From: an uncultured Candidatus Saccharibacteria bacterium
GTDB taxonomy: Bacteria > Patescibacteriota > Saccharimonadia > Saccharimonadales > Saccharimonadaceae
Reading direction: 5' to 3'
DNA: 57,509 bases
NCBI GenBank assembly: GCA_946415265.1
Contig: CAMKRV010000003.1
Coordinates: forward strand, 1 to 57,509
In this document: one piece after another, positions 1-8,086 of the stretch
Layout of the letters: the number at the start of each line of letters is the position of its first letter
How positions within the stretch are numbered: the first letter of the stretch is position 1
Translations under genes and position numbers: made by a program
Notes under the pieces: generated by a model
Told to the model about the DNA's origin: nothing
Database searches by the model: none
What the model saw: only the letters and a program-made list of their open reading frames with translations

Positions 1-591
1 GCCTTCAAGCACCCGTGACGACACCATATCTGGCACCGTCATATAAGTAAAACCGTGTTCTAGTACTTTAGAAAGCCCATATTGCAAAAGCGCGTTCTCT
101 AGCAAGGCTAGTTCACCTTTCAAATAGTAAAACTTCGTTCCTGCCACCTTTGCGCCACGCTCAAAATCTACCCAATCACGACTCACGGCATAATCTAAAT
201 GATCCACGCCCGTTTCATGATTCTCACCCCAGTGTTTGATTTCTACACTATCTTCTTCTCCGCCTAGTGGCACATCGTCAAAAATAATGTTCGGCACGGT
301 CTTAATTAGCGCTTTTAAAGCCCCTTCAGTCTCGCCAAGTTTTGCTTCTTTCTCAGCTAGCTCTATTTTTATTTTCTTCCCCGCCTCAATTAGTTCCGGC
401 TCCGGCTTACCACCCTTCATTTTGGCAGCTATTTCGTTACGTTTTTGTCTAAGTTCTTCTACTTTTGCTAATTCGGTCTTCCTTTTATCATCTATATCCA
501 ATATTTCACGTATATTTACTCTATAGCCCTTTTCCTTAGCCGATTTTTCTACAAGTTCTAAATTTTCTCTGATAAATTTCACATCTAACAT
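1..591 (-). CDS. serS: Seryl-tRNA synthetase, N-terminal part (runs off the window)
   Basis: Charges tRNA-Ser with serine in the cytoplasm. The first 197 codons are present. They start MLDVKFIRENLELVEKSAKE and continue into a charged heptad-rich segment (about residues 30-100), which is the tRNA-binding coiled-coil arm of class II SerRS. After it comes the start of the catalytic core (YLKGELALLENAL, then TVPDMV). The catalytic motifs 2 and 3 lie outside the window. The ATG at 591-589 sits 6 nt after an extended -10 box (TGATATAAT read on the minus strand, hexamer at 603-598), so the transcript is probably leaderless. Recognition as SerRS is by overall sequence and is firm. Confidence 0.95.
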   Translation of the reverse strand, partial: MLDVKFIRENLELVEKSAKEKGYRVNIREILDIDDKRKTELAKVEELRQKRNEIAAKMKGGKPEPELIEAGKKIKIELAEKEAKLGETEGALKALIKTVPNIIFDDVPLGGEEDSVEIKHWGENHETGVDHLDYAVSRDWVDFERGAKVAGTKFYYLKGELALLENALLQYGLSKVLEHGFTYMTVPDMVSSRVLEG

Positions 592-636
592 GCCCTCATT
601 ATATCACTATTCCAATAAATCTGCTATAATAGAGAA

Positions 637-1488
637 ATGGAAAATGCTTTTACAATCTTACCAATGAGCCAAAATTTTACTCTCGTCCCTGGCGAAACCT
701 ACACTGGCTCCATCACCGTAGTTAATCCCGTAAATTCCACGAGCGATTTCGCTTATTCTGTCTCTGTTTCTCCATATAACGTCATTGGCGAAGATTACCA
801 AGCTGATATCTCAAATGTTTCTGCCTACTCCAAAATCACGGATTGGATCACTATCGAAAATCCTACTGGCTCCATCAAACCCAACGAATCTCAAGAAATT
901 AATTTTACTATCAACGTCCCAGCCGATGCTGCAGCCGGAGGCCAATATGCCGCCATTATGGTGTCTTCCGATCCTTCCAAGCAAGAGTCCGAAGGCGTTT
1001 CTATTAATAACGTCTTTGCCCTTGGTAGCATTATTTATGCCGACGTAGAAGGCGAAGTCACCCACGAAGGCTCCATTTTGCAAAATAACATCCCAGAATT
1101 TTCTACCGTTACGCCAGTAGCCATCAGCGCCCTACTAGATAACCATGGCAATGTTCACGAAAACGCAATTTTCGCTTTAAATGTCACCAATGCTCTTACT
1201 GGCGAAAAAATCTTCCCCACCGACGAAGATCAAAACAATCATTTCTCCGAAATAGTCATGCCAGAAACTACCCGATATATCACCCGCAATATAGATAATC
1301 TCCCTGCCCTTGGCATAGTAAAGGTAGAGCAAACTATTTACTACAACAACGAAGTTTCTACAGTCAGCAAAAATATTGTCTTGTGTCCCATCTGGTTCTT
1401 CTTCTTGGTAGCACTTGTTATTTTCAGTATCATTGGCTTTATTGTAGCCAGTGTCCGCCACCATCGCCGCAAAAAGTCTACCATTTAG
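637..1488 (+). CDS. Surface-protein-like ORF with C-terminal membrane anchor, no signal peptide
   Basis: 283 residues. Most of the protein looks like beta-sandwich extracytoplasmic sequence (PGETYTGSITVVNP, then TINVPADAAAGGQYAAIMVS), resembling the DUF916/WxL-associated class of Gram-positive surface proteins. A single membrane helix (about residues 250-272) is followed by a basic tail (RHHRRKK), the layout of a protein anchored from outside. No hydrophobic signal sequence precedes the domain. The ATG lies 6 nt after TGCTATAAT (hexamer 625-630), so there is no room for an upstream extension under that promoter. Either the gene has lost its signal peptide or the start is wrong. It is co-oriented with, and ends about 200 bp before, the DGR template repeat, so readthrough could help supply template RNA (inference). 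Confidence 0.7.
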   Translation: MENAFTILPMSQNFTLVPGETYTGSITVVNPVNSTSDFAYSVSVSPYNVIGEDYQADISNVSAYSKITDWITIENPTGSIKPNESQEINFTINVPADAAAGGQYAAIMVSSDPSKQESEGVSINNVFALGSIIYADVEGEVTHEGSILQNNIPEFSTVTPVAISALLDNHGNVHENAIFALNVTNALTGEKIFPTDEDQNNHFSEIVMPETTRYITRNIDNLPALGIVKVEQTIYYNNEVSTVSKNIVLCPIWFFFLVALVIFSIIGFIVASVRHHRRKKSTI

Positions 1489-1511
1489 CATAAGTTGTAT
1501 TACAATATAAT

Positions 1512-1695
1512 GGGGGAAGTTGCAACAGGAAACCGCTATCCCATAATACTACCGGACCGTATTTTTCATTAATCCCGCCAGCGCTTTCTCTAAAATGCAA
1601 CTTTACAAAAAGAGTTGGATGAGCTCACTCCTATATAATAGAAGTCCCATTAAAACCGCTATCTTCTACGGAAGTTGACGGCCAAAGCAGCTCTG
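1512..1695 (+). other. Upstream flank of the DGR template repeat (possible template-RNA leader)
   Basis: Non-coding stretch between the 637-1488 gene and the TR. A TATAAT box (1506-1511) would place a start near 1518, exactly at an inverted repeat AAGTTGCA (1517-1524) / TGCAACTT (1596-1603). A second TATAAT lies at 1634-1639. The 11-mer AAACCGCTATC occurs twice (1530-1540 and 1653-1663). ACAAAAAGAGTTG (1605-1617) is identical to the plus-strand sequence just past the VR end (3970-3982). Its last ten bases are complementary to the end of the TR (1926-1935), so the TR could be closed by a 10-bp stem. No -35 box is convincing for either -10. The role as RNA leader is inferred. Confidence 0.5.
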
Positions 1696-1935
1696 GAATC
1701 CCCTTTATGGTTTGTGCGGTCCGGCAACGTCAACAACGGTAATCTCAACAATCCAGGCTCTGAAGCGAACTACTGGTCTAGTACGGTCAACAGCAGCAAC
1801 AACGCCTACAACCTAAACTTCACGGCTACTAACGTTAACCCGGCCAACAACAACAACAGGAACAACGGGAGGTCTGTGCGCTGCGTAGCGCGCTGATATT
1901 AGTTTCCTCTCTCCTCTCTTCTCCGCAACTCTTTT
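1696..1935 (+). repeat. DGR template repeat (TR)
   Basis: This 240-bp non-coding copy matches the 3' end of the variable-protein gene (3973-4212, minus strand) with no gaps. There are 20 differences and all fall on adenines of this copy: 13 read T and 7 read G in the gene. The affected triplets are AAC codons (to TTC, TAC, GGC or AGC) and one AGG (to TGG). This is the signature of adenine-specific mutagenic retrohoming, and it fixes the template RNA as the plus-strand transcript. Translated in the VR frame the TR gives a run of Asn codons, the usual design of DGR templates. It ends 8 bp from the RT stop codon and runs toward the RT gene. Only the copy in the gene has a start codon and secretion signal, so the TR is not itself a gene. 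Confidence 0.96.
1878..1891 (+). other. Small hairpin in the TR 3' part (also present in VR)
   Basis: GCGCT-GCGT-AGCGC forms a 5-bp stem with a 4-nt loop just before the stop codon, present identically in the TR and in the VR. Characterised DGRs have an initiation-of-mutagenic-homing (IMH) segment at the VR 3' end and a short GC-rich hairpin nearby. The position here fits that role but function is inferred. The following stretch up to 1935 (TR) and down to 3973 (VR) is invariant. Confidence 0.5.
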
Positions 1936-1943
1936 CTCCCCCA

Positions 1944-3110
1944 CTATTTTTCAAAAACCCAACCATTCGCATCGAACACCTCTTTTTTTAATTTATTCGC
2001 ATCTAAATGCATCATAATTCCCAAGTATGACACTATACTATCAGTATCTTTATACCCATACATTAACCCGACAGAAGCCAATCGAAATTTTTTTTGCAAC
2101 CTATCACTCGGATATAAACAATGCGGATACACTCTTGCACCCAAAAAACTCATTCCTCTTTTCACTTCTTGATAGTATCGCTTCTGCTTATGTAAAGTTA
2201 ATCCAAGTTTTGCATTTAAAAAATATTCTATTCTTGGTATATCACTTTTTAATTTTTCATATTCTTCTTCTGGCACCATAATAAAAAAATCATCCACATA
2301 TCGTCCATAGTTCTTATATCCCAAATTATAAAAAACGAATCTATCTAATTGATCCAAATAAATATTTGACACCAACTGCGAAGTAAGATTGCCAATTACT
2401 ATACCTTGCCCTGGCGGCTGTCCAAAAAGACTCTTCTTTGGAGGCAATACTCCAGGACTCCAATTTACTACCGGTCCACGCTTCCACGCTTTGCTTACCG
2501 GATCATCAAAAAGTACTCTTCGCCACAAAAAATCACAAATTTTATACATCTGGTATCCCATCCGATCGTTCATTACGTCTTTAAATTGCTGCTTCAGCCC
2601 CCAACTCACGCGCTCATATAATTTCTCACGCGGCAAACTCATAAAATAGCCCCTTATATCTAGTTTTACAATGTATGCTTTTTTTGCATAATTATTAGTG
2701 ACTTTTTGCATAAATTTTTGTGCACGTCTCATACCAAAAAGCGTCCCTTTTCCAACTCTACATGAATAAGAATCATAAAGGAATCTTCTATCCCACCATC
2801 CCGCCTGCATATTGTAAAGAAAATGGTGCACTACCCTATCCCGAAACGGCGCCGCAAAAATTTCCCTTACCATCGGATCAAATATTACAAACGATACACT
2901 AGCACTTGGTTCATAACGATATTCCAATATCGAATCTCGTAAATTCACTAAATTTTTTAGCCAATGAAGCTCAAAGCTATGCTCATCGCACGTCTTGATC
3001 TTACCTTTCCTAGCTTCCGTAAATGCCGCCGTCAGCTCTTCCAGCAGCCACTGGCGCAATCCATCTCGATAAATCCTATCTACCTTATTTTCTGGATCGA
3101 TCGGTTCCAC
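1944..3110 (-). CDS. DGR reverse transcriptase
   Basis: 388 residues. Makes cDNA from the TR RNA with errors at adenines; the cDNA replaces the VR. Visible motifs: KLDIRGYF at about 149-156 (catalytic Asp151), IGNLTSQ at 239-245 (the DGR-type form of RT motif 4, where group II intron RTs have a different consensus) and YVDD at 271-274 (catalytic Asp273 and Asp274). The C-terminal thumb follows, and there is no maturase or endonuclease domain. The start ATG overlaps the end of the Avd-like gene by 26 bp, so the two are cotranscribed and probably translationally coupled. No terminator is visible before the TR, which lies 8 bp past the stop in opposite orientation, so readthrough would give antisense TR RNA. 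Length and motifs are normal for a DGR RT. Confidence 0.96.
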   Translation of the reverse strand: MEPIDPENKVDRIYRDGLRQWLLEELTAAFTEARKGKIKTCDEHSFELHWLKNLVNLRDSILEYRYEPSASVSFVIFDPMVREIFAAPFRDRVVHHFLYNMQAGWWDRRFLYDSYSCRVGKGTLFGMRRAQKFMQKVTNNYAKKAYIVKLDIRGYFMSLPREKLYERVSWGLKQQFKDVMNDRMGYQMYKICDFLWRRVLFDDPVSKAWKRGPVVNWSPGVLPPKKSLFGQPPGQGIVIGNLTSQLVSNIYLDQLDRFVFYNLGYKNYGRYVDDFFIMVPEEEYEKLKSDIPRIEYFLNAKLGLTLHKQKRYYQEVKRGMSFLGARVYPHCLYPSDRLQKKFRLASVGLMYGYKDTDSIVSYLGIMMHLDANKLKKEVFDANGWVFEK

Positions 3111-3927
3111 GTTTTATTTGTCTATCTATTCTTTTCTCTATATCCAGTACATTTTCGCCCACCTTCATACAATTTTCTCTAGTCCATAATTTCAATCCTG
3201 CTACTATTTGCAATTCTATCAATAGCTGATGTATCGTCTGTCGCATTTCGCGCCAATATGGCAATAAATCTTCTGGTCTGCTCCTCCCACACTCTGCCAT
3301 TTTATAGTATATTCGAATCACCTCATCCATTATATTTACCATCCGCTCGCCATTGGTAGCACTAGAAAGTTTATCCATTCTCCGATAGCATATTCTATGT
3401 AGTCTAGTTGATACTTCTATTAATTTTTGATACAATGCCGGATCAATAAAGTCCACTTTTACGATGCTGTTTACTGCAAGTTGCCTAATACTCTCCTCAT
3501 TTTTAATTCTGTCCAATTCTTCTTCAGTTAAAGCTTTTTTTAACTCAAAAATCATACACTTATCTTTTATCTGCTCCTTTTTATACAGTCCCACTTTTTC
3601 CAACCTACTTCTTACCACATCAAATCCTCGTGTCCGTATCCTGCCTATATCGTACTGAATATAAAAACTATCAAAATCATCCGTCATTGTCACCGGCACT
3701 CCTAGTGGTAAACACACCATATATTTATACATTAGTGCCGAATGTTCACTCATCTCACACCATCCCATTTCCCCATCACATGGAATTACCAAAATATACT
3801 TTCTATTGTTCGATTCAAACTTTATCGCTCTACGTTTGAGCCTATCGTATTCTTTTCTTTCTATTCTACCAATTTCTTCAAAACTTCTATTTTTAGTTTT
3901 ATTTTTTTCATCCACTTTCATGGTCAT
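3085..3927 (-). CDS. Avd-like DGR accessory protein with an extra N-terminal domain
   Basis: 280 residues. The C-terminal part (about 165-280: LYQKLIEVSTRLHRICYRRM and onward to the basic end) is helical, basic and the right size for an Avd/four-helix-bundle accessory protein, which binds the RT and template RNA in known DGRs. Avd proteins are usually about 110-130 residues. Here about 160 residues precede it (SNNRKYILVIPCDGEMGW and so on), mixed alpha/beta and not recognised. It may be a fusion or a domain new to DGRs. The gene starts 9 nt after an extended -10 (TGCTATAAT, hexamer 3942-3937) and leads the two-gene avd-rt unit. An in-frame ATG two codons later is an alternative start. The Avd assignment rests on position, size and composition. 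Confidence 0.75.
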   Translation of the reverse strand: MTMKVDEKNKTKNRSFEEIGRIERKEYDRLKRRAIKFESNNRKYILVIPCDGEMGWCEMSEHSALMYKYMVCLPLGVPVTMTDDFDSFYIQYDIGRIRTRGFDVVRSRLEKVGLYKKEQIKDKCMIFELKKALTEEELDRIKNEESIRQLAVNSIVKVDFIDPALYQKLIEVSTRLHRICYRRMDKLSSATNGERMVNIMDEVIRIYYKMAECGRSRPEDLLPYWREMRQTIHQLLIELQIVAGLKLWTRENCMKVGENVLDIEKRIDRQIKRGTDRSRK

Positions 3928-3972
3928 ATCATAACCATTATAGCACCATTTTCCTATTCATCGGTCTCGACA

Positions 3973-4212
3973 AAAAGAGTTGCGGAGAAGAGAGGAGAGA
4001 GGAAACTAATATCAGCGCGCTACGCAGCGCACAGACCACCCGTAGCCCCTGCCGTAGCTGCCGGCCGGGTTAACGTTAGTAGCCGTGAAGTATAGGTAGT
4101 AGGCGTTGTAGCTGCTGTTGACCGTACTAGACCAGTAGTACGCTTCAGAGCCTGGATTGAAGAGATTACCGAAGTTGACGAAGCCGGACCGCACAAACCA
4201 TAAAGGGGATTC
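3973..4212 (-). repeat. DGR variable repeat (VR) in the 3' end of the target gene
   Basis: The counterpart of the TR. It covers codons 480-545 of the target, its stop codon and 39 bp beyond. Relative to the template, 14 residues are changed: three Asn to Phe, six Asn to Tyr, three Asn to Gly, one Asn to Ser and one Arg to Trp. Aromatic and glycine residues at clustered positions are typical of binding surfaces diversified by DGRs. Framework residues (YWSST, SVRCVAR) are unchanged. The last 42 bp from the stop codon onward are identical to the TR. Confidence 0.96.
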
Positions 4213-5649
4213 TATTAGTTTTTTATCATTATTAGTAATACCGTCGTTATAAAGACCGTTGACTCTGGCAAATTCACTAGTAGAATTTACTACGTTACCC
4301 TTGTATGAGATAGTGGGTAGTCTCCAGCCTTTAGGACAGATAGAGTTCTGTGGGTTCCTATTGATAGCATCTGGATCACTAGTACTACCATAAGTAGAGT
4401 TTGTTAGACTACTGCTATCGTCACTAGCTATTGCTGCAGACCAGTTGTAATAATTACCTACAGATAGATGTCTATTAGCATTAGTTCTATCTTGAGTGAA
4501 GTGCGTACAGCCGGCACTCGCGTTAAGATAATTGCAGTTTGGCGTGCTATCATCACCATCCCAGTACCATTCACCAGGATCTAGAGAGTAAGCTACATTA
4601 TAAGAGTTAGCCCAGTTAGTACCAGTCCCGGTAGCGGAATGCTTGGTGGTATTCTGTGGTGTCCAAGAAATCACATTGTTTGTAGCATCATAAGAATAGT
4701 CTTTACCGTATGCTCCAGCCATAGAGTTATCGTTAAGATCGGTATCATTAGATGTTAAAGCGGTATCTGGAGATAAATCTAGGTCTAGATTCTGCGTCAT
4801 CCAACAATGTCCATCCTTCAGTTTAGTCACCCAGTACAGTTTATTGTCTCTAGTGTCCACCAAACGAATAGAGTTATTTTCATCAACCGAAGTTGCAGAG
4901 GAGCAAATACTATTCTCCATATCCTGCATCTTGTAAAACTGTCCGCTATCCCCAGTCACCGGATCGGTTACTGTTATTTTCTGTTTTCCTGCCAAGGCAA
5001 AGGCATTCTCTAAAGTCGCAGTAGGTTGGGCGGCGGTAGATGGGTGAAGCATCACATATTTCACCTGTCCACTATATGTAGCGGCAGGCTGAGTGCTTAT
5101 TGTATATACCGCATAAGTAGTATTGAAAGCCGAGTCCACACCAGTAGCCGTTCCGGCACCCAAAGATGCTACCTTAGTCCACTGGTTCGGGACACTAGTA
5201 TAATCCGTATATTCAGATACGATGCTAGGAGTATAATCACCAGTCCCGCTAGCAGTCAGCTTCATCGCCCAACTAGACGTACTGCCGCCGGCCGCTGCAT
5301 CCCCAGTCTGAATATCAGACGCAGAACCCAACGTAGAAGCCAGAACATTAGATCCTTCAGTACCACCAGTAGAGCCAATCGCATAAACCACATAGCCATT
5401 TTTATCATTACATGACGTATTAATCTTCGTTGCGCCAATATTTTCTATCCTCTGTCCGCTTACTATAGAAGTCGTATGTGCAGACGTCAAAGTTCCAATC
5501 ATGGTACAAGAAACAGGGATACGAACACTAACATTATCCAAAGCAGAATTATTCAACGCATACACACAAGAATTGGCTAAACACGCACCGACAAGACTAG
5601 TCACGCCAACAAGCCCAGTCGCAATAATCCCCTTACTCATACCTCTCAT
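4012..5649 (-). CDS. DGR target: secreted protein with Fib_succ_major/C-lectin-like variable domain
   Basis: 545 residues. An N-terminal signal (MRGMSKGIIATGLVGVTSLV, cleavage around ALA/NSA; VGAC could alternatively be a weak lipobox) is followed by a beta-rich region (about 35-215) similar to that of the paralog at 49.3 kb. A linker follows (ITVTDPVTGDSGQFYKMQDM), then the Fib_succ_major-type domain (LYWVTKLKDGHCWMTQNLDL, ICPKGWRLPT, YWSST, SVRCVAR). That family has a C-type-lectin-like fold, the commonest DGR target fold. The variable residues are in the last 66. The protein is presumably displayed on the cell surface, with ligand unknown. A -10 (TGGTAGAAT, hexamer 5694-5689) lies 39 bp upstream. 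Unlike its three paralogs it lacks the long structured leader. An in-frame ATG at 5640 is an alternative start. Confidence 0.93.
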   Translation of the reverse strand: MRGMSKGIIATGLVGVTSLVGACLANSCVYALNNSALDNVSVRIPVSCTMIGTLTSAHTTSIVSGQRIENIGATKINTSCNDKNGYVVYAIGSTGGTEGSNVLASTLGSASDIQTGDAAAGGSTSSWAMKLTASGTGDYTPSIVSEYTDYTSVPNQWTKVASLGAGTATGVDSAFNTTYAVYTISTQPAATYSGQVKYVMLHPSTAAQPTATLENAFALAGKQKITVTDPVTGDSGQFYKMQDMENSICSSATSVDENNSIRLVDTRDNKLYWVTKLKDGHCWMTQNLDLDLSPDTALTSNDTDLNDNSMAGAYGKDYSYDATNNVISWTPQNTTKHSATGTGTNWANSYNVAYSLDPGEWYWDGDDSTPNCNYLNASAGCTHFTQDRTNANRHLSVGNYYNWSAAIASDDSSSLTNSTYGSTSDPDAINRNPQNSICPKGWRLPTISYKGNVVNSTSEFARVNGLYNDGITNNDKKLIESPLWFVRSGFVNFGNLFNPGSEAYYWSSTVNSSYNAYYLYFTATNVNPAGSYGRGYGWSVRCVAR

Positions 5650-5654
5650 CTTTG

Positions 5655-5675
5655 CTAATCCCCGTTTACTTTCAT
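5655..5675 (-). CDS. Six-codon upstream ORF before the DGR target gene
   Basis: ATG-AAA-GTA-AAC-GGG-GAT-TAG (MKVNGD) lies in the leader of the variable-protein gene and stops 5 nt before its ATG. The GGGGA within it may serve as ribosome binding site for the main ORF. It might couple translation of the target to that of the short ORF, or be chance. Translation is not shown. Confidence 0.3.
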   Translation of the reverse strand: MKVNGD

Positions 5676-5744
5676 GGTTATTTACTTTATTCTACCACAC
5701 TTTTTCGTTTTGTAGCAAGACTTTTATGTTTATTTTTTTGCAAT

Positions 5745-6530
5745 TTAGCTAAAAATTTCGTTATACATTTTCCGCCAATCAGATAAATGCAAATCCCCTG
5801 GCCGCGCATCAATATCTATCCCCAGTTTCGTAAATATAGGCGTCAATTCTTCTTTAGATTTTAGTCCCGCCAAATTATGTATCAGTTTCTTCCGCGGCGC
5901 ACTAAAACCTTGCCGTACTAGCCTAAACACTTCTTCTTTTACTACCGCTTCATGTGGCTGCAAAACTATCACCTGACTATCTACCTTTGGCGGCGGCGTA
6001 AATTCTGCTCGCCCCACTACCGGCCCCAGCTCCGCATCGGCATAATTTTTCACAAAAAGACTCAGCATTGTCTCCCTACTACTCACAATTCTTTCCGCTA
6101 CTTCTTTTTGAATTAATAACGCTATTCGTTCTGGCCGATTTTTCATCTTCAATAATTTCTCTATAATCAGACTAGTAATATAATACGGTATATTTCCGGC
6201 CACACTATATGGCTGTGGCAAATCATCAAAATCACAATCCAAAATATCCGCATTTATTACTTCTAAATTTTTACCTGGAAAAGATTTCGGCAAATTTTCC
6301 GCTAAATTTTTATCATATTCTACCGCTATCACCCTATTAAAGCGTTTTAGTAGACTACTCGTCAAAGTTCCAAGTCCCGGCCCAATCTCCACTACTAACG
6401 CAGATTTTTCGGAAGAAACGGACGCGCTACCTTCAGGCTCACCCCCCACCGCTAAATCAGCAATTTCGTCCAAGATCGCCCGGTTTTTTAACCAATGCTG
6501 TCCTAAAAATTTTTTATTCTTCATCCCCAT
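5745..6530 (-). CDS. rsmA: 16S rRNA (adenine1518/1519-N6)-dimethyltransferase
   Basis: 261 residues, about the usual KsgA length. Dimethylates two adjacent adenines near the 3' end of 16S rRNA during small-subunit maturation. KKFLGQHWL at the N-terminus, the SAM-binding EIGPGLGTLT (48-57) and the catalytic NIPYYIT (113-119) are intact, and the C-terminal helical domain is present (DFHLSDW-like end: GDLHLSDWRKMY). The gene follows the Rpf-like gene with a 3-nt gap, in one operon. The start may be the ATG at 6530 or the one two codons later, which is preceded by GGGG. Proximity of an rpf/yabE-type gene to ksgA is also known in Actinobacteria and Bacillus. Confidence 0.95.
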   Translation of the reverse strand: MGMKNKKFLGQHWLKNRAILDEIADLAVGGEPEGSASVSSEKSALVVEIGPGLGTLTSSLLKRFNRVIAVEYDKNLAENLPKSFPGKNLEVINADILDCDFDDLPQPYSVAGNIPYYITSLIIEKLLKMKNRPERIALLIQKEVAERIVSSRETMLSLFVKNYADAELGPVVGRAEFTPPPKVDSQVIVLQPHEAVVKEEVFRLVRQGFSAPRKKLIHNLAGLKSKEELTPIFTKLGIDIDARPGDLHLSDWRKMYNEIFS

Positions 6531-6533
6531 AAT

Positions 6534-7568
6534 CTAATACCAGCCGTGCGCATACCAGAAATTAATCGCCTCTTGCCAACCACCATAACGACTCACATAT
6601 CCAGACATCCATCTAATCTGTGTTACTGGATTCGTTTCCCAATCTGCCCCTGCTGCAGCCATTTTGCTACCAGGCAAAGCTTGCGGAATACCATACGCAC
6701 CAGACGGATTCGCCGCATCTACCCTACAACCACTTTCATGATAAATCAGATCTAGTGCTGCAGATAAATCCGCCTCACTTACACCTGCTTGCCGCGCCCA
6801 ACTTGCACAAGTCTCCCACTCTGGCGGAATAGACTTCTTTGCCCCCACCGCCACAATTCTATCCACTGGTGCTTTTATAATCTCCCCAGAAACAAGTTCC
6901 CTAAATACCTCCACATTATCTACATATAATATATTATATGTAACTCTTTTTTGCCCAACTTCACCCAGCTGCCGCACCTCACTCTTGCCCTTTTCCATGC
7001 TAGCATCTTTTTCTTCACGTTCTCCAAAAGGGATCTCTTCATCTATTGTCAACGTCCTGCCACCATTGCGTGTAATCTCATATACACTCGCTACACCTGT
7101 TTCCAAAAAATCTTTATTGGGCACAAAATCTATCTCATCACCGTCATACACCGTAATTCCAGCCTGACCAGCAATCGTTTTAGTATCATAACTCGCCGTC
7201 ATTAGGTATTTAGTAATCTTACCATCCTTTACTATCACTGGCCGCGCCCTATATATATTAATAAAGAAATTATCCGCGTTTATCTCGGTATCTAAGCCAG
7301 GCTCCACTATGTCACCAGTGTTTATTACGATATTTGCCCGCTCTATAGCCTCTTTTACGGTTTTAGCCTCAGTTTTTACCGTCAATTTATTTTCTTCATC
7401 ATAAAAAGTAACGAATTTAGCGCCCTCAGTTATATATGTATTCGTAGATTCGTCACCCTCAGCAGAAGCATTCCTTACCGTCACCCCCGCAACCACTGCA
7501 AAAATAATCACTAAAGAAATAGCTATCACAAAACCAAAAGCTTGCTCGATTTTACGCGAAAGCCTCAT
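6534..7568 (-). CDS. Rpf/YabE-like cell-wall protein: DUF348, G5 and lytic-transglycosylase-like domain
   Basis: 344 residues. One N-terminal membrane helix or uncleaved signal (about 10-30) is followed by a DUF348-type ubiquitin-like region (VTFYDEENKLTVKTEAKTVK), a G5-type region (about 150-230, ending VDRIVAVGAK) and a C-terminal lysozyme-like domain (247-344). The motif YHESGCRVDAANPSGAYGIP contains the likely catalytic Glu278. Domain order matches actinobacterial RpfB and resembles Bacillus YabE apart from the last domain. It probably cleaves peptidoglycan, either the cell's own or that of a host bacterium (inference). The ATG is 6 nt after TGATATAAT (hexamer 7580-7575), so the transcript is leaderless. 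It heads an operon with rsmA. Confidence 0.85.
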   Translation of the reverse strand: MRLSRKIEQAFGFVIAISLVIIFAVVAGVTVRNASAEGDESTNTYITEGAKFVTFYDEENKLTVKTEAKTVKEAIERANIVINTGDIVEPGLDTEINADNFFINIYRARPVIVKDGKITKYLMTASYDTKTIAGQAGITVYDGDEIDFVPNKDFLETGVASVYEITRNGGRTLTIDEEIPFGEREEKDASMEKGKSEVRQLGEVGQKRVTYNILYVDNVEVFRELVSGEIIKAPVDRIVAVGAKKSIPPEWETCASWARQAGVSEADLSAALDLIYHESGCRVDAANPSGAYGIPQALPGSKMAAAGADWETNPVTQIRWMSGYVSRYGGWQEAINFWYAHGWY

Positions 7569-7612
7569 ACCCTAATTATATCACACTTATGCCAAAAAGT
7601 CCACCCCTATTA

Positions 7613-7779
7613 ATAAAAACCTGTGCGAGGGCAGGTTTTTAAACAATTTTCTAGGTGGTGACAAAACATCTATTTTAGCCAAAACAGCTCTACACTCTCC
7701 ACCCTGTTACTAAACATCTCCCAAATATTTAGTTTTACTAGGCTCAGGCCGCTTTCAACGTCGGATTTGGTCCAAACCT
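7613..7779 (-). ncRNA. Candidate small RNA with consensus promoter and terminator
   Basis: On the minus strand TTGACA (7813-7808), a 16-nt spacer and TGC-TAAAAT (hexamer 7791-7786) form one of the best promoters in the window. It predicts a start near 7779. About 165 nt downstream AAAAACCTG-CCCTCGCA-CAGGTTTTT followed by ATTA is an intrinsic terminator (7640-7613). There is no ORF with a plausible start between them. Local inverted repeats are visible, such as GGTGG/CCACC around 7665-7718. Size fits 6S or another housekeeping RNA, but no family was recognised and no SRP or tmRNA motif is present. Confidence 0.55.
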
Positions 7780-7785
7780 GATTTT

Positions 7786-7813
7786 ATTTTAGCATAGGCA
7801 AAATACCTGTCAA
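7786..7813 (-). promoter_or_regulatory. Consensus promoter for the candidate small RNA
   Basis: TTGACA at 7813-7808, 16-nt spacer, extended -10 TGC-TAAAAT at 7794-7786, read on the minus strand. No protein-coding start lies within 150 nt downstream. Confidence 0.6.
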
Positions 7814-7954
7814 CCTTGTTTTTTCAAATTATTTATGGTTTAATTTATTCGCAATTTTAGCTATTTTACAGAGGTAATTTTCAAAAACCGAACACTTTCT
7901 ACTTGACATTTTTAAGTATTATTGCTTAATTCAGGATTATATTTTCCATTTATA

Positions 7955-8086
7955 TAAAGCAAACCCGAGAAATTTTTTCTAAATTTTAGAAAAATCGACG
8001 AGCAAACCCCCATCCGGCGTGAGACAAGCGATTTTTCGTTAAGAAATTTGGAAAAATTATTCCCGGCGTACAGCGTAGGCGCAAAC
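7955..8086 (+). repeat. Structured 132-bp intergenic repeat, copy 1
   Basis: Shares a conserved block with 51016-51147 (AAAGCAAACCCGAGA at the start, CCATCCGGCGTGAGAC in the middle, GCGCAAAC or ACGCAAAC at the end). Internal pairing includes an AT-rich stem (TTTTTTCTAAATTT with AAATTTGGAAAAA) and AAAAATCG with CGATTTTT. It lies between the small-RNA promoter and the promoter of the 8131 gene, so it is not part of that gene's message. The rest of the 7814-7954 spacer shows nothing recognisable. Confidence 0.65.

Follow-up and report, generated by a model that had tools for sequence, protein, structure and literature searches.

A Saccharibacterium carries a diversity-generating retroelement (DGR) that we take, with a probability of about 0.7, to be active and built around a permuted, stand-alone homing RNA. 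Its template repeat (TR) lies on the strand opposite both the reverse transcriptase (RT) and the target gene, convergent with the RT and 8 nt from the RT stop, and is preceded by a leader with a strand complementary to the TR 3′ end. The element thereby departs from the BPP-1-type layout, in which the TR lies on the RT strand and is followed by a pairing 3′ spacer. We lean slightly towards a broader view, namely that patescibacterial DGRs carry a primer-guide strand 5′ of the template, which would have freed the RNA to move behind the RT and then, in Saccharibacteria, to flip, and which would amount to a second, previously undescribed mode of mutagenic cDNA priming. The element lies in a window of 57,509 nucleotides, the whole stretch of DNA analysed here, belonging to a 772,665-base genome in 24 contigs that holds a second DGR (L018). 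An RT with 98% identity belongs to a MAG that bears the name Candidatus Saccharibacteria; the gut of goats and sheep is the source of other relatives.

DGR biochemistry rests nearly wholly on BPP-1, where the 3′ spacer recruits RT-Avd and primes the cDNA. A large cellular lineage in which an autonomous antisense RNA carries its pairing strand 5′ of the template would show which parts of the RNA are essential and would point to where cDNA priming should be sought in the CPR, a DGR-enriched group (PMC8144416 describes DGRs as common there). Leader and TR together would form a compact, modular template for engineering targeted diversification. For the host-dependent gut Saccharibacteria, the picture is one of genomes of about 0.8 Mb that keep several apparently live hypermutators of secreted lectin-like proteins. 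The literature searched, mostly by keyword, in its accessible parts and with the main older surveys outside it, describes neither an antisense TR throughout a clade nor a pairing leader on the 5′ side, and priority for these features is uncertain.

A preliminary description of the window, made from its letters alone, had proposed a complete DGR whose target is a secreted lectin-fold protein, and the TR/VR pair, the RT, the Avd fold of the accessory protein and the FISUMP target all support it (Table 1). TR and variable repeat (VR) align over 240/240 nt without gaps, as had been claimed, and an inverted repeat finder recovers identical arms independently. A repeat alignment returns the same 20 mismatches (13 A to T, 7 A to G, no A to C), 20/20 at TR adenines, for which the probability by chance is 1.8e-13 over the whole repeat and 1.8e-10 over the mutated span 1726-1870. 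The changed residues correspond to 14 codons, every one inside the last 66 residues of the target; 13 of the 14 are AAC in the TR, in keeping with the predominance reported earlier, and the remaining one is AGG changed to TGG. The absence of A to C changes was considered as a special property of this RT and rejected: C accounts for 12.5% of the 1282 changes pooled over 61 loci, and under this family spectrum 0/20 has a probability of about 0.07. The A to C share is 20% in BPP-1-like phages and 17% in other Patescibacteria. Remote VR-like copies in the genome were considered as further targets of the window TR, but their many non-adenine differences (41 mismatches, 26 at A, in copy C2, for example) give no support to current targeting.

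Table 1. Coordinates of the DGR, its leader and its repeats in the window.
Feature	Position	Strand	Remarks
5′ domain of leader	1517..1603	+	putatively closed by AAGTTGCA (1517-1524) / TGCAACTT (1596-1603); window sequence and predicted fold
P1 5′ strand in TR leader	1608..1617	+	AAAAGAGTTG; complement of the TR 3′ terminus
Conserved linker and P2 element after P1	1618..1645	+	GATGAGCTCACTCC...GAAGT; hairpin imperfect in window, strong in many relatives
P3 hairpin adjoining TR	1656..1681	+	paired changes in relatives L064 and L065
TR, template repeat	1696..1935	+	RNA strand +, antisense to RT; all 20 differences at + strand adenines
P1′ strand	1926..1935	+	CAACTCTTTT; final 10 nt of both TR and TR/VR homology
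DGR reverse transcriptase, 388 aa	1944..3110	-	GTG start 3110; IGNLTSQ, YVDD; phrog_1423, 233 bits; 8ub7, E 1.6e-26; tree
Accessory gene, 280 aa	3085..3927	-	overlaps RT start
Avd domain, accessory residues 160-280	3085..3450	-	AlphaFold model; 4dwl_C Z 14.8, 8ub7_B Z 14.2
Extra N-terminal accessory domain, residues 1-159	3451..3927	-	alpha/beta
VR, variable repeat	3973..4212	-	last 66 target codons with the stop, plus 39 nt downstream of the gene
Perfect inverted repeat at VR 3′ end	4017..4030	-	GCGCTGCGTAGCGC; also in TR 1878-1891; candidate DGR target hairpin
Target gene, 545 aa	4012..5649	-	C-terminal FISUMP / C-type-lectin-like domain; TIGR02145, 57.2 bits

Between TR and VR lie the RT and the Avd-like gene, as the preliminary description had it, and the RT, accessory and target ORFs, said there to look intact, are all open in the window. 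The RT retains the YVDD of the expected catalytic aspartates and the DGR-group motif [IVL]GNxTSQ in the form IGNLTSQ; a profile search matches it to phrog_1423. Its best solved-structure match is the BPP-1 DGR RT (8ub7, a DGR ribonucleoprotein entry), with the group II intron RT LtrA reaching E=0.0098 only. The target has a signal-peptide-like N-terminus, judged by eye, and a full domain that scores above the TIGR02145 cut-off of 41.65, while Pfam PF09603 gives 28.5, below its cut-off of 33.9; we assume that the FISUMP domain adopts a C-type-lectin fold. Judged by its sequence, the element is a real DGR in a Saccharibacterium.

Adenine-specific changes mark the strand of the template RNA, as established for BPP-1 (PMC12875486). 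Since the window mismatches fall at + strand adenines, the template RNA strand is the + strand. The antisense TR, the structured 5′ leader and the two-domain accessory protein had not figured in the preliminary description. We gathered 80 stretches around the RT genes of relatives and scanned each with a single TR/VR finder: in 67 of the 69 related loci with a TR/VR pair the TR is opposite the RT, nearly always immediately 3′ of it. A finder of this type placed the TR on the RT strand in 95/95 BPP-1-like phage DGRs and in 48/48 DGRs of a gut-phage group, so that the opposite orientation occurs in 0/143 phage DGRs in total. On a quick tree of DGR RTs alone, built without a non-DGR outgroup and with some branches open, the antisense layout prevails in one supported clade of Saccharibacteria, the sister clade has the TR behind the RT on the same strand, and canonical orders fall outside both. 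Three other patescibacterial loci are also antisense.

If the RNA is antisense to the RT, a 3′ spacer of the BPP-1 type would overlap the RT gene, and complements of the TR 3′ end were therefore sought on both sides of the TR. Screening for stems over a broad stretch of TR gave noisy results, and a swap test and a motif-anchored test took its place. The swap test searches 300 nt at each of 62 loci for exact complements of the TR 3′ end and takes its expectation from swapped partners; its binomial p-values are optimistic because the loci are related. Upstream of the TR, 9-nt complements occur at 16/62 loci against 1.0 expected, 8-nt complements at 24/62 against 3.3 and 7-nt complements at 37/62 against 12.1, while for 9-nt complements there is no excess in the 300 nt downstream of the TR (0 against 0.5 expected) or upstream of the VR (0 against 0.4). 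In the motif-anchored leave-one-out test, where the leader strand is located only through the motif that follows it, as learned from the other loci, pairing with the locus's own TR 3′ end gives z 12.7, a value reached in 0/5000 permutations. These comparisons demonstrate, at the level of sequence, that the leader strand P1 and the extreme TR 3′ end P1′ coevolve, and the functional unit begins upstream of 1696, with a leader at about 1513-1695.

The P1-type element comprises 7-12 nt located 80-240 nt upstream of the TR. Leader and TR 3′ end read AAAAGAGTTG/CAACTCTTTT in the window, TCGGGAAGC/GCTTCCCGA in the genome's second DGR, and GGGAGCCG/CGGCTCCC, AGGGGCATT/AATGCCCCT, CGCGAAACG/CGTTTCGCG and ACGCGAGCTG/CAGCTCGCGT in the related loci L070, L078, L093 and L113. 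A P1 of at least 7 nt is found in 40/63 loci, some of them by chance (about 12/62 are expected for 7-mers); at part of the loci without P1, the TR ends are poorly placed. P1 is followed by a purine-rich linker and then a YACYY-like motif, present in 28/40 where random positions give 7.8%. The motif opens a hairpin, with 6 bp or more in 21/40 compared with 12.5% of shuffled sequences. The end of P1′ coincides with the end of TR/VR homology in 9/26 and lies at most 2 nt from it in 15/26. The case for the leader rests on covariation rather than energy, since the folding energy of the window leader is unremarkable (z -0.27 and -0.61), and its MFE fold does not form P1. An Rfam search of window positions 1-8000 returned nothing at E<=1. 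A TATAAT at 1506-1511 lies just upstream of the 5′ domain; it is weak, and no clear promoter for the + strand RNA was identified.

The same pairing can be followed outside the antisense clade. Across 27 canonical-order patescibacterial DGRs, 8-nt complements number 6 against 1.2 upstream of the TR and 0 against 0.7 downstream, and one of these elements (L181) has a 12-bp upstream pairing. The 5′ position therefore seems to predate the inversion of the TR, and a modular RNA with its own leader could have moved behind the RT and then flipped. Within the 144-nt spacer of BPP-1, AGGTGGT at spacer positions 48-54 is the stretch that best complements the TR 3′ end; it lies directly before C55-A56, of which A56 is the priming adenosine. 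An internal spacer adenine is known to prime BPP-1 cDNA (PMC12875486). In a motif-anchored test on 17 BPP-1-like phages, the spacer strand equivalent to AGGTGGT covaries with the TR 3′ end of the same element (p=0.003 by permutation). Applied to BPP-1-like and gut-phage DGRs, the swap test gave no enrichment upstream or downstream of the TR; too strong a conservation of the spacers is the probable reason. A pairing strand is thus present in both BPP-1-like and window-type DGRs, but on opposite sides of the TR.

These data allow a mechanism to be proposed. An RNA transcribed rightwards from about 1510 on the + strand would fold so that P1 pairs with P1′. The leader would be the binding site of the RT and the Avd-fusion protein, a role that the 3′ spacer plays for bRT-Avd in BPP-1. 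Synthesis of cDNA into the TR would be primed by the A of GA, a leader nucleotide close to P1 on its 3′ side; this A, at P1+2, would be the positional parallel of A56, which follows the helix in BPP-1. Adenines would be misread while the TR is copied. The cDNA would remain attached to the leader RNA, whose P1 strand matches the VR too, and would replace the VR of the lectin gene. Retention of P1′ in the VR and the frequent end of homology at P1′ fit such a leader RNA-cDNA single strand complementary to the VR. The outcome would be variants of the surface protein with changes at 14 residues, in most of which Asn gives way to Tyr, Phe, Gly or Ser.

An ordinary DGR is an unlikely but serious alternative to this permuted homing RNA: the orientation would be a neutral rearrangement, a BPP-1-like 3′ spacer would prime over the RT antisense, and the 5′ pairing would be only a closing stem. 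The 3′ spacer is essential in BPP-1 (PMC12875486), and inverted-RT cassettes are known as a minority pattern (PMC6642488). Against this, complements of the TR 3′ end are not enriched downstream in either the antisense clade or canonical-order Patescibacteria, and the TR ends almost at the RT stop. It is still less probable that P1 and P1′ are short terminal inverted repeats of a mobile leader-TR cassette, acting in DNA with no RNA helix. The pairing is short, G-U pairs in P1 (3/12) are too few to prove RNA over DNA pairing, and the leader-TR unit is placed differently relative to the RT in different clades; but the same motif and hairpin follow P1 on one strand only, the corresponding BPP-1-like strand precedes the known priming adenosine, and P1′ is retained in the VR, which has no leader.

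Among known systems, the window element resembles BPP-1 in its adenine-directed transfer from TR to VR, DGR-type RT, Avd fold, C-type-lectin-like target at the gene 3′ end and covarying helix between the TR 3′ end and a flanking RNA strand. It differs in that the BPP-1 TR lies between avd and brt on the same strand whereas the window TR is antisense and convergent, in having its pairing strand in the 5′ leader and none enriched 3′ instead of in the 3′ spacer, in its two-domain accessory protein, and in repeats of 240 nt against 134 nt. With the DGRs of Patescibacteria/CPR (DGR clade 2 and others) it shares being cell-encoded and occurring several to a genome, and the sampled canonical-order elements also have P1 5′ of the TR; the patescibacterial DGRs sampled differ in mostly having the TR 270-400 nt upstream of a smaller same-strand RT without an adjacent Avd fusion. 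The inverted cassette G5 also has its RT inverted relative to TR and VR, but in the accessible part of PMC6642488 it is a minority pattern described without an RNA element, clade-wide fixation or a coevolving leader. Retrons, with their msr-msd RNA and 2′-OH priming, likewise have structured RNA 5′ of the template, of which a nucleotide in the window is proposed as cDNA primer, but the window has a DGR RT, VR replacement as its product and an RNA that is not co-oriented with the RT.

The activity that had been inferred at the outset is supported by a close relative, G181, whose locus is 95.7% identical to the window over 7.6 kb. The two VRs differ at 24/61 TR-adenine positions and at 0/173 of the other positions unchanged in the TR, and three non-adenine TR changes are mirrored, each VR carrying the base of its own TR. 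This pattern is as mutagenic retrohoming predicts, unlike drift or plain gene conversion, and VR turnover between these two close genomes gives strong comparative support to the element having homed since they diverged. That it is an inactive relic, or that ordinary gene conversion keeps TR and VR similar, is scarcely credible: most VR-like copies across the genome lack a good TR match, but TR and VR differ at adenines only, the ORFs are open, and the G181 comparison places VR differences at TR adenines and elsewhere only where the TR changed.

The accessory protein found no family match by sequence search. Its AlphaFold model (66 relatives in the alignment; pLDDT 93) has a C-terminal four-helix bundle with the Avd fold, superposing on 4dwl_C at an rmsd of 1.6 over 109 residues, with a Foldseek probability of 1.00 (E 0.08) against Avd. 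As modelled, the protein is an Avd fused to an extra N-terminal domain, for which sequence and structure searches found no confident fold or family. Accessories of about 250-340 aa directly precede the RT in nearly all relatives of the Saccharibacteria antisense clade, and none of this kind was found next to those canonical patescibacterial RTs that were examined. For the extra domain, a weak lead points to MutS domain I: Pfam MutS_I appears in 2/66 full-length members (best E about 0.04) and is absent among the families listed for the N-terminal parts searched alone, and MutS-beta gives a Z of 3.9 over the first 119 residues. The lead is of interest because MSL, a MutS_I protein, is a known DGR accessory (PMC10053308).

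Tyrosine was the commonest product of change at AAC codons in the window's clade of diversity-generating retroelements (DGRs), where AAC to TAC accounted for 293 of about 850 outcomes across 61 pooled loci, a share far higher than in the comparison group of BPP-1-like phages.

The genome that holds the window carries a second complete DGR (L018, on contig C14), whose reverse transcriptase (RT) is 48% identical to that of the window and whose template repeat (TR) likewise lies antisense to the RT. Its leader strand is complementary to the TR 3' end (TCGGGAAGC/GCTTCCCGA), and it has an Avd fusion and a lectin target of its own. About nine more lectin-like genes (L019-L028; contigs C22, C2, C10, C23, C11, C5, C7 and C1) end in 3' sequences resembling a variable repeat, with some 58-82% identity to the window's TR. 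Several of them have NKLRSNPYYFVRSG in common and could belong to a third TR, missing or lost.

Features located in the window and on contig C14
Feature	Location	Strand
WxL-interacting-protein-like surface protein gene, membrane-anchored product	window 637-1488	+
Second complete DGR	L018:9430-12047	

The WxL-interacting-protein-like gene ends just ahead of the TR leader, and the TR RNA could arise by read-through from it.

A sister clade from other families of the same order (L158-L162) has the TR behind the RT on the same strand, with a strongly conserved leader, CTAAGAGACAATACTCACTAG...CTAGTTCT. Gut-phage DGRs (L332-L408) share a conserved 3' spacer motif in the TR-RT interval, ACCTTGCCTCTTGGCAAAAAA...GTGTTGGTAG, possibly an RT-binding RNA element.
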